From the NCBI RefSeq assembly GCF_014490035.1, contig NZ_CP061008.1, positions 3,534,001 to 3,598,000 on the forward strand: a stretch of DNA of 64,000 nt. Reading direction: 5' to 3'. The notes under the pieces were generated by a model, which did not search any database, had not been told where the DNA came from, and saw nothing but the letters and a program-made list of their open reading frames with translations. The position numbers and the translations under genes were made by a program. Each line of letters begins with the position of its first letter. Within the stretch, counting starts at the first letter, position 1. The DNA comes from Achromobacter xylosoxidans. Lineage in GTDB: Bacteria; Pseudomonadota; Gammaproteobacteria; Burkholderiales; Burkholderiaceae_B. This document shows positions 34,377 through 44,270 of the stretch, piece by piece.

Positions 34377-35615
34377 TCAGGCGCGTGCGTACATCCGCAG
34401 GATTCCATGTCCGATCACGCCCTGGCTGAGCGCGTACTGGCTGAATGCGCCCAGCGGCATCGGCCTGCCATGGAAATACCCTTGCGTGACCTGCGCCCCC
34501 AATGCGCACACCATGTCGTATTCCTCCTGGGTTTCGATGCCTTCGGCCACCACCGTCATGTCCAGCGACCGCGCCATCTCCACGGTGCAGGCCAGGACGT
34601 CCTGGGCGTGTCGATGGCGACTCGCACGGGAGATCAGGTCGCGATCTATCTTCAGTTCGTCGAAAGGCGCGCACAGCAGCCGGTCGAGCGAGGAATCGCC
34701 GGTGCCGAAGTCGTCGATCGCGCAGCTGAAGCCGCGCAGGCGCAGTTGCGTGACGGCCCCAGCCAACGCCCCATTGGAGCGGGCGCCCCCGTCCTCGGTG
34801 ATCTCGATGACGATGCGGCTCGGATCCACGCCGGCGAACTCGGCGCGGTCGGCCACGTCCTGCGCCCAGCAGATGGACCTTGCAACGGTCGCCGGCACGT
34901 TGATGCTGATGACGCAATCGGGCCGGTTGCCGAGTTCGCGCAGCGCCTCGAAGGCGCGCGCCAGCATGTGGTCGGTCAGCGATCCGAGCAAGCCGGCTGA
35001 CTCGAAAGCCGGCAGGAACGCGGCCGGAGGAATCATCGTGCCGTCGTCGGCGACCCAGCGGGCCAGCATTTCGGCGCCGCGCAGCTCGCCCGTCGAGACG
35101 CAATGCTGCGGCTGGAAGTATGCGGTGATCTCGCGCTGCGCCAGGGCGCGGCGCAGGCGTTCGGCGTCCAGGCCGGCCAGCGCCACGCTGCTGCTCTGCG
35201 CCGCGGCGCGCAGCGTCGCCGCGCCATCGGCCAGCGCCGTCCGGGCCAGGGATTCGATCATTGCAATCAGGCAGGCCGCTTCCAGCGGCTTGCCCAACGC
35301 GGCAATGATGGGCAGGCCGCGATTCCTGGCGTAGGCCGCCGCGGCCTGCAGGATCCGGGACGGATGGCTGCTGGCGATCGCGATGCCGCCGCAGCCGCCG
35401 GCCTCGGCCAGCGCGTCGATCATCTGCAGCCCGGTGCGGTCCGTCATGTCGAGGTCGACGATGACCAGATCCCACTGCCGCTGCTGGATCGCCGCCACGG
35501 CCGACGCGCCGTCGTGCGCCACCGCCACCTCGGGCACGCCGATCTTGCCCAGCATCCGCGTCAGCGCGGAGCGTTGGAGTTCGTCTTGATCGACAACCAG
35601 GGCGGATTTGAGCAT
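34377..35615 (-). CDS. Receiver-EAL response regulator, c-di-GMP phosphodiesterase (RocR-like)
   Basis: About 412 residues from MLKSALVVDQDE. The ATG at 35615 has AGGA at good distance, while in-frame upstream ATGs lack one. Receiver residues are 1-125, with D9/D11, phospho-acceptor D54 (VIVDLDM) and K109 (LGKP). The EAL domain is at about 155-405. The motif itself reads E182-M-L. The other catalytic residues are kept: N239 (INVPA), E271 (EITED), D301-D302 (IDDFGTG), K322 (LKID), E358 (AEGIET) and Q378. Active c-di-GMP hydrolysis is therefore likely. The domain order and the neighbouring hybrid kinase and LuxR regulators match RocR of the Pseudomonas Roc/Sad system. It is divergent from the first kinase gene. 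Confidence 0.9.
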   Translation of the reverse strand: MLKSALVVDQDELQRSALTRMLGKIGVPEVAVAHDGASAVAAIQQRQWDLVIVDLDMTDRTGLQMIDALAEAGGCGGIAIASSHPSRILQAAAAYARNRGLPIIAALGKPLEAACLIAMIESLARTALADGAATLRAAAQSSSVALAGLDAERLRRALAQREITAYFQPQHCVSTGELRGAEMLARWVADDGTMIPPAAFLPAFESAGLLGSLTDHMLARAFEALRELGNRPDCVISINVPATVARSICWAQDVADRAEFAGVDPSRIVIEITEDGGARSNGALAGAVTQLRLRGFSCAIDDFGTGDSSLDRLLCAPFDELKIDRDLISRASRHRHAQDVLACTVEMARSLDMTVVAEGIETQEEYDMVCALGAQVTQGYFHGRPMPLGAFSQYALSQGVIGHGILRMYARA

Positions 35616-35722
35616 GATGTTCCTCATGAACGGCGGGCCCATGACGCTGCGGCAAGGCGCCTGCAGGCGGGAGGCCAGGCAGCGAACTGCCGACGAATTC
35701 ATTGTTCCACCCGCGGCCGGGA

Positions 35723-44200: not shown

Positions 44201-44270
44201 GCAGGACCGCAAGAAACTCGAGGAACATCTGCTCAGCCTGGAGACCGCCGCGCGCGCCGCCTTGCGCTGA
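41232..44270 (+). CDS. Hybrid sensor histidine kinase with REC and Hpt domains (RocS/BvgS-like), kinase 2
   Basis: About 1012 residues from MPNSTAMASL; an in-frame ATG at 41163 would add 23 residues and cannot be excluded. The architecture equals kinase 1: a membrane segment at about 33-58, a periplasmic domain of about 310 residues, a second membrane segment near 370-392 (YLTVTILLLSTLWALLLWF) and a PAS-like region. HisKA has H545 (ATMSHEIRTPLNLVL). HATPase motifs are VNLVGNAVKF, DTGIGM and GGTGLGLPI. The receiver has D843 (LTDISMPEINGY), and the Hpt has H963 (CHSIRGAFSMI). Similar flanks (VYAYSWRTVVA here, IYAFSWRTIVA in kinase 1) show they are duplicates with diverged sensor domains. It probably feeds the same two LuxR regulators and the receiver-EAL protein. 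Confidence 0.92.
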   Translation: MPNSTAMASLGDTQDLLSAGMQHDRGLSLLARYHSVMLFGGGMVLSVLIVLAACLVLYNAAHAAIARLHTELAAHQSLVSLDLEGKQTAMRRGVINAELLWQARPAPTPENEAALRAGHGRVRLQASAGLTPILAVADTAAASSADEHARYLGMLELQAYTATASQQERKSPLMAYGYSPDLRFLALMPAPRLDFPQLLERVGASDTAGLISRLSYDLAVLKDPDAAALWASTRRILWQAPAVNPLTGQNVIKLVEPAFDGLQPFMIFVSDYPVGALAARLDAIPDGTAVALVDGDGRILLETDRGRPIAHSDGPVRTALASGSWKPAATEPQTRYQHGVFNVSGPLLDTGWTLVYAYSWRTVVAALLPSLALYLTVTILLLSTLWALLLWFHRKALVPVHRRSQHVFESEHMNRSIIASAQFGVGLVSCASGEALLQNAMMERYAARAAAGVSLHGLLRDCHARGDRDAWVQRDQEVTLKLDDGRECDLLVNIVKTRYHGDDVLLCSFSDATARKDIERRRDDARIAAIDAARAKSVFLATMSHEIRTPLNLVLGHLELLDRDPNAVGQGGRLRTVREASRALVDLINDILDVSRMESGQMTIERIPFDLAQIAAQVVAMFEPAARAKGLRLSFKPHSGLAQSYAGDPTRIRQVLVNLVGNAVKFTEAGEVEITATPGRGLAGGTGVQLRVRDTGIGMTTEQAARVFTLYAQTDGSISRRYGGTGLGLPISKKLVEMMDGTLSVACSVGRGSVFSVALPLQACPQTADAAPLSAGPVGPPATAASCGLARDIRVLVVDDHPANRELILDQLAALGIAADAAEGAAAAMRWVRMRRYDMVLTDISMPEINGYALAQFLRARGPALPVVAVTAHVEPDELHSSAADFDAILLKPLSLRALQRTIREHIPQARLGDESLAFTDPATLPPEPAVLAALDSSLGASLAAIREALTRADFKSVREQCHSIRGAFSMIGKTAVADLCMQMGQYASAQDRKKLEEHLLSLETAARAALR

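Follow-up and report, generated by a model that had tools for sequence, protein, structure and literature searches.

The DNA analysed here (the window) is a stretch of 64,000 nucleotides from Achromobacter xylosoxidans, positions 3,534,001 to 3,598,000 of contig NZ_CP061008.1, which lies within a single-contig genome of 6.76 Mb. It carries an island of six genes: a gene for a receiver-EAL protein, two hybrid histidine kinases (K1 and K2), two response regulators (R1 and R2) and a small open reading frame (ORF) of 128 aa. We consider it likely that this island represents a conserved regulatory chassis that governs surface adhesion through two sensors and is poor in cargo in Achromobacter. An earlier reading of the same DNA (the original prediction) had described a doubled Roc/Bvg-type phosphorelay island, and the anatomy it gave was correct in every gene: two kinases, two regulators and one EAL gene, all open frames, in the order EAL(-), K1(+), R1(+), R2(-), small ORF(-) and K2(+). 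The features are as follows (window positions).

34377 to 35702, minus strand: EAL gene, encoding a receiver-EAL (REC-EAL) cyclic di-GMP (c-di-GMP) phosphodiesterase, RocR/PvrR-like (Pfam EAL 7e-60 and Response_reg 7.1e-13; RocR 3sy8; NCBIfam PvrR)
35730 to 35743, plus strand: operator-like box 1, TCAGCCGAGTCCTA, in the EAL/K1 divergent promoter region (pattern search)
35809 to 38850, plus strand: K1, unorthodox hybrid kinase, sensor-HisKA-HATPase-REC-Hpt (Pfam, tree, gene order)
35956 to 36894, plus strand: K1 sensor stretch (modelled as dCACHE)
38848 to 38861, plus strand: operator-like box 2, TAGGCTTAGTCCTA, upstream of R1 and overlapping the K1 stop codon (pattern search)
38983 to 39681, plus strand: R1, RcsB/RocA-like response regulator, REC-GerE (Pfam, NCBIfam, tree)
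39700 to 40410, minus strand: R2, RcsB/RocA-like response regulator, convergent with R1 (Pfam, NCBIfam, tree)
40513 to 40899, minus strand: small ORF of 128 aa, probably secreted, pilin-like at best (signal-peptide-like start, by eye)
41061 to 41074, plus strand: operator-like box 3, TAAGCCCAGTCCTA, in the small-gene/K2 divergent promoter region (pattern search)
41093 to 41106, minus strand: weaker second box with 2 mismatches, 32 bp from box 3 (pattern search)
41232 to 44270, plus strand: K2, unorthodox hybrid kinase (Pfam, tree, gene order)

The ratio of nonsynonymous to synonymous substitution rates (dN/dS) was between 0.05 and 0.29 across the six genes (against 2 or 3 other Achromobacter carriers), and all six therefore look real and under purifying selection. 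Pfam found HisKA, HATPase_c, REC and Hpt in both kinases, with the H-box, receiver Asp and Hpt His motifs present in each, and the shared architecture with intact H, D and H residues was thus as originally described. In the mechanism that we propose, K1, with a periplasmic sensor modelled as dCACHE, and K2, with a related sensor, would each relay phosphate internally from His to Asp to His and hand it on to R1 and R2, which are RcsB/RocA-like. Both regulators would bind an RcsB-box-like palindrome (TMRGNNNAGTCCTA) at three promoter regions (EAL/K1, R1 and small gene(-R2)/K2) and, because of this proposed binding, switching on would induce all of these genes at once, for both regulators and both kinases as well as for the EAL phosphodiesterase and the small secreted protein. 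Transcription, and not phosphotransfer, would most likely couple the EAL arm to the rest. This frame flanks trimeric autotransporter adhesins (TAAs) in Burkholderia and a chaperone-usher operon in two Stenotrophomonas loci; in Achromobacter it carries the 128-aa protein at most.

The gene order is conserved beyond this genome. R1/R2-class regulators (at least 54%) and K1/K2 were present in 4 of 43 Achromobacter genomes, including the same island in A. aegrifaciens (L032) and A. anxifer (L033), and the order K1(+) R1(+) R2(-) K2(+) was found in all four islands. An R2-like regulator was detected at 1e-45 in 59 of 65 Burkholderia-type genomes (of a genus presumed to be Burkholderia), at a level of at least 58% in 14; the layout was examined in these 14 and in G325. 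Gene boundaries in the compared loci are longest-ORF calls, and some starts are too long. The K1-like kinases of the Burkholderia-type loci were 67-88% identical to that of B. cenocepacia, and all 14 loci had the layout K1-TAA(s)-R1><R2-OmpA-TAA. Twelve of them reach K2, in the same orientation; the other two contigs end before K2. A winged-helix regulator was called upstream of K1 in 10 of the 14. The locus of B. cenocepacia NZ_CP091013 reads K1(+), TAA, R1(+), R2(-), an insertion-sequence-like gene, an OmpA protein, a 2822-aa TAA and K2(+). Since the K1-R1-R2-K2 order is kept in other genomes, the two arms belong together there, and the synteny check bore out the idea of a clustered network.

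The published B. cenocepacia cluster has a corresponding order: kinase BCAM0218, TAA 0219, outer-membrane protein 0220, regulators 0221 and 0222, TAAs 0223 and 0224, kinase 0227 and regulator 0228 (PMC3404963). From this published order, and not from the J2315 sequence, K2 would correspond to BCAM0218 and K1 to BCAM0227.

Other layouts were seen as well. In two Stenotrophomonas loci (L034 and L036), a single K1-type kinase is accompanied by the EAL gene, by both regulators and by genes for a pilin, a chaperone and an usher (tested with Pfam in L034); a third (L038) has the kinase, EAL and both regulators with no fimbrial genes between them, and the fourth (L035) has the kinase, EAL and R2 within its 20-kb stretch. 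In this last locus, from Stenotrophomonas sp. PS02298, the EAL gene is split over two frames (8156-9443). In G175, the genes for R2, a kinase, an EAL protein and R1 all run in one direction; the EAL protein (L123, 10315-11523) lies between the kinase and an RcsB-like regulator, and its receiver was unrecognised by Pfam. In G325 (L118), a kinase is divergent from two RcsB-like regulators near chaperone-like genes (named by eye), and no box is present even when 2 mismatches are allowed.

K1 and K2 are 40% identical over their full length and their sensors 28-30%, in agreement with the diverged sensor domains first noted. The best NCBIfam matches were RcsC for K1 and TorS for K2, both below the cut-offs. 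In the kinase tree (52 rows), K1 fell in a clade of 26 rows (SH-aLRT 100) with Stenotrophomonas, Acidovorax/Variovorax, Paraburkholderia and Burkholderia rows, and K2 in a clade of 12 rows (SH-aLRT 99) with Variovorax and Burkholderia rows; the tree was built by a quick method without bootstrap, and its outgroup of 3 rows was not recovered together on one side of a branch. R1 and R2 are 55% identical, and RcsB was the best NCBIfam match for both, below cut-off. In the regulator tree (24 rows), the R2 clade had a support of 99/98, and the R1 clade with Burkholderiaceae only 82/80. Because each kinase and each regulator clade holds both Achromobacter and B. cenocepacia, the splits are older than these lineages, and K1/K2 and R1/R2 are old paralogues with separate relatives in other genera. 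A recent local duplication of one arm is rejected on the evidence of the two trees. In searches of genome collections, a K2-type kinase was found at 1e-15 in 4 of 399 Burkholderiales genomes (up to 4 candidates scored per genome, a weak negative), the K1 sensor matched in 2 of 369 genomes of the class (up to 5 candidates scored, equally weak), and query P0018 had no match in 299 genomes of the family of G175, a weak result with 2 candidates scored per genome among the matches listed.

These results bear directly on the doubled Roc/Bvg-type network, in which two duplicated BvgS/RocS-like kinases would both supply phosphate to a pair of RocA-like regulators and to the EAL protein and so control Cup fimbriae. 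R2 shares 48.6% identity with a P. aeruginosa regulator adjoining the cupB genes, which from its neighbours and from PMC12051241 we infer to be RocA3/PA4080; RocR (3sy8, E 8.7e-41) is the PDB structure that the EAL protein matches best, and cross-talk of RocS1/RocS2 with RocA1/RocA2 was reported in P. aeruginosa (PMC3083521). Against it, the SBP_bac_3 domains described in RocS1 (PMC12051241) had no Pfam match in K1 or K2, and the sensor of K1 was modelled confidently as dCACHE. On these two results, we reject a RocS/BvgS-type sensor. Moreover, a Pfam scan of the 6 island proteins and 8 flanking ORFs gave no usher, chaperone or Fimbrial match, K1 and K2 are old paralogues, and the acid pocket of the EAL receiver is altered (see below). 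As a duplication, "doubled" does not hold either: the lineages are old, three of the four Stenotrophomonas loci have both regulators with a single K1-type kinase, and the fourth has one regulator in its stretch. We consider this network quite unlikely.

A repeated palindrome was seen on aligning the intergenic regions of the four Achromobacter islands, and we regard it as an RcsB-box-like palindrome and the predicted operator for R1/R2. R1 and R2 have NEIAERLHRSKKTISTQK in common in the recognition region, and their recognition helices are nearly identical, as the original prediction had noticed. Searching for TMRGCYNAGTCCTA with up to one mismatch gave 3 matches in the 64 kb, all exact and all in island promoter regions (35730, 38848 and 41061); 0.07 were expected, and none of 100 shuffles reached 3, although this expectation understates chance, since the consensus was chosen after the aligned sites had been seen. 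Fairer measures are the count over the whole genome and the finds in other genera. Exact TMRGNNNAGTCCTA occurred 5 times in the 6.76 Mb genome (19 times for the reversed control), 3 of them in the island; one of the two sites outside overlaps the end of a kinase-like ORF and the other lies within a pump-like ORF (both named by eye). The published RcsAB box consensus is TaAGaatatTCcta (PMC4325325), and by our own count the three window boxes agree with it at 9-10 of 14 positions. In the three other Achromobacter islands, the boxes are kept in position at 0-2 mismatches, and the 32-bp spacing near box 3 recurs in G016 and G001. In Burkholderia, the variant TAGGACCAGTCCTA is frequent. In the 14 Burkholderia-type loci, searched for exact TMRGNNNAGTCCTA or TAGGACNNGTCCTA, a box stands at the boundary of the giant TAA and K2 in 12 of the 12 loci that reach K2 (in G1097 by TAGGACNNGTCCTA only, and in G1116 within an overlong called TAA frame), and a box precedes a plus-strand TAA in 10 of 14. 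The EAL/K1 promoter of Stenotrophomonas has a box at 0-2 mismatches in all four loci.

Several observations, together with the late choice of consensus mentioned above, weigh against a chassis of this kind. The 14 Burkholderia-type stretches hold about 14 further box sites elsewhere, counted without a shuffle control. The chaperone-usher promoters of Stenotrophomonas have a 2-mismatch site in L034 and none at that level in L036. At four other loci of the A. xylosoxidans genome (L025 to L028), only two 2-mismatch sites were found, both in coding sequence (one in L026, one in L028), and L025 and L027 had no box at up to two mismatches; the island may thus control nothing beyond itself. R1 and R2 run in the same direction in L034 and L036 and are convergent in L038. 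In Paraburkholderia atlantica (L037, 9974-11975), R2- and R1-like regulators stand next to each other in a 20-kb stretch that gave no match to K1, K2 or EAL; linkage of regulators and kinases is thus not universal. Finally, the orphan EAL genes of two Achromobacter genomes (G041 and G042) keep the box, though no R1/R2-class regulator was found in these genomes, which makes them a natural test of the box.

The arms might also be two insulated pathways, K1 to R1 and K2 to R2, without a common output. K1/R1 and K2/R2 are neighbouring pairs, and the low identity of the two sensors would suit such insulation. However, the recognition helices are nearly identical and the boxes alike, and in three Stenotrophomonas loci and in G175 a single kinase accompanies both regulators; we therefore judge insulation unlikely.

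The EAL domain keeps its catalytic motifs, and this part of the original prediction, an EAL protein with intact catalytic residues, stands. Two changes had been overlooked: loop 6 reads DDFGTGDSS (DDFGAGYSS in RocR), and the acid pair of the receiver is D-Q, whereas two paralogues encoded in this genome have D-D or E-D. The acid pocket was altered in 11 of 11 such receivers (the window included, one a fragment), with the phospho-Asp kept in all 11; the second acid-pocket residue was Q, A, S, G or N, and in G175 the first was also lost. The protein scored 243.6 bits against NCBIfam PvrR (cutoff 580), and its true start is possibly an internal Met at 35615. Because of the degenerate acid pocket, the claimed c-di-GMP output through a shared phosphorelay is doubtful. 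In PA14, PvrR was reported to function without its receiver Asp, and RcsB to raise pvrR expression (PMC3842833). Given this precedent, the altered pocket and the RcsB-like box in the promoter shared by the EAL gene and K1, transcriptional coupling is the simpler reading, and the c-di-GMP output is probably wired through transcription and not through phosphotransfer.

Only the 128-aa ORF sits between the island arms, with no TAA there, and it is the only non-regulatory gene adjoining a box in the island. It lies 102 bp upstream of R2, with which it is possibly co-transcribed. It had been called pilin-like; as a gene it is an open frame with dN/dS of 0.20 and 0.29 and a signal-peptide-like start (by eye), whereas the label itself rests on a short GTITFTGGV stretch resembling Stenotrophomonas pilins, since no Pfam, NCBIfam or significant fold match was obtained (profile comparison, AlphaFold2, Foldseek and VIA). 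The AlphaFold2 model was poor (pLDDT 60.6) and matched nothing well, and the pilin alignment used for profile comparison had four rows, one of them (L118:11466-12035) chosen by eye and not surely a pilin. The gene is present in 3 of the 4 island-bearing Achromobacter genomes, with no match in A. anxifer and weak matches (about 5e-4) in two further genomes.

The poverty of cargo raises the question of decay. The island could be a relic whose adhesin cargo was lost and whose regulators persist only until deletion. It occurs in only 4 of the 43 Achromobacter genomes, and no adhesin was found among the genes scanned (the island proteins and 8 flanking ORFs, where a permease-like ORF named by eye had no Pfam match). 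G041 (L139) and G042 (L137) have the EAL gene only, beside a histone-deacetylase-like gene and with an exact box before it, and no K1-K2 block; in G009 the island-flanking genes are joined. These layouts indicate that the island was lost or gained as a block. Decay is nevertheless quite unlikely to explain the island, as its six genes are intact, with low dN/dS against other carriers, and its boxes are conserved in position.

The ligands of the sensors lead to a further alternative, in which K1 would be a receptor of the diffusible signal factor (DSF) family, for Burkholderia DSF (BDSF), and the island an adhesion switch driven by a fatty-acid signal. BCAM0227, to which K1 corresponds by gene order (PMC3404963), was reported to sense BDSF and to be confined to B. 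cenocepacia, with two transmembrane helices and a 300-aa periplasmic loop (PMC4504480), and K1 shares this topology. The genome also has a convergent rpfF/rpfR-like pair, a crotonase (RpfF-like) and a PAS-GGDEF-EAL protein (RpfR-like), at L124 4412-7387 (genome about 4,191-4,194 kb). It is possible that this pair is a DSF-type signal system; its RpfF-like gene scored 185.9 bits with the RpfF model (cut-off 550). On the other side, the role of BCAM0227 is disputed and was judged negligible in strain H111 (PMC3703271), the K1 sensor is 30% identical to the K1-like sensors of B. cenocepacia, no more than to that of K2, the dCACHE structures matched by the K1 model bind many small ligands, and the correspondence to BCAM0227 was drawn from gene order. 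We therefore hold a BDSF-driven switch to be doubtful. A literature search found no paper joining Achromobacter, BDSF, sensor kinase and adhesin. Also rather doubtful is a broader form of the chassis, in which K1, K2, R1, R2 and one palindromic operator would make a mobile unit kept across genera, its surface cargo (TAAs, chaperone-usher fimbriae or a minimal secreted protein) would be exchanged, and K1 would answer DSF-family signals.

The two-sensor chassis for adhesion, our preferred reading, connects an Achromobacter island that has received little study with an adhesin cluster of Burkholderia, and provides a concrete 14-bp operator predicted for R1/R2. BCAM0227-type kinases, described in a review as confined to B. 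cenocepacia (PMC4504480), may have relatives in Achromobacter, Stenotrophomonas, Variovorax and Paraburkholderia. The cargo-poor version makes the sensor ligands and the controlled adhesins directly testable.

Among known systems, the nearest frame is BCAM0218-BCAM0228, which like the island has two hybrid kinases at the ends and two regulators in the middle (PMC3404963). It was compared through B. cenocepacia NZ_CP091013 and the 14 Burkholderia-type loci, not J2315 itself. These related loci share with the island the K1-R1><R2-K2 order and orientation, K1- and K2-clade kinases, RcsB-like regulators and the palindromic box. They differ in having at least two TAAs, an OmpA protein and, in most of them, a winged-helix regulator gene upstream of K1, none of which lies in the window between the arms or next to them. 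In the window, by contrast, an EAL gene diverges from K1 and a 128-aa protein is encoded. PvrSR/RcsCB of P. aeruginosa PA14 is also a cluster of two kinases, an RcsB-like regulator and a REC-EAL protein (PMC2696094, PMC3842833); in PA14 the EAL gene is under RcsB control (PMC3842833). Unlike the island, it has one regulator, a PvrS without Hpt (both island kinases have one) and adjacent cupD fimbriae. With these two clusters already published, the island is not the undescribed variant it was first taken for; new here are the operator-like box, the conservation across genera and the proposed link to BCAM0227. Elsewhere in this genome, L025 (6394-14528; genome 3,696-3,705 kb) has exactly the PA14 gene order pvrS-pvrR-rcsC-rcsB (kinase-EAL-kinase-RcsB), with approximately the same sizes, and adjoins an autotransporter-type gene (AC_1 and Pertactin matches). 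L026 (7481-19850; genome 5,592-5,605 kb) is similar, with kinase-EAL-kinase followed by a 756-aa protein with a TcfC match (usher-like, weak); no RcsB-like regulator was found at that locus.

The Roc1/Roc2/Roc3 systems of Pseudomonas resemble the island in their RocA-like regulators, RocR-like EAL protein and two unorthodox kinases (PMC3083521, PMC12051241), but they have an SBP_bac_3 sensor in RocS1, separate loci and cup operons as targets (PMC12051241). A layout like cupB with roc is seen at L027 (17-12428; genome 6,212-6,224 kb), with usher and fimbrial genes, FhaB/FhaC-like genes (by eye) and an RcsB-RcsC-like pair. CblRST of Burkholderia cepacia is similar by description, with two sensors converging on one regulator of surface pili (PMC3842833). 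The enterobacterial Rcs phosphorelay supplies the best NCBIfam matches of R1 and R2 (RcsB) and of K1 (RcsC), and its box (TaAGaatatTCcta) is resembled by that of the island; however, all these matches lie below the cut-offs, and the best match of K2 is TorS.

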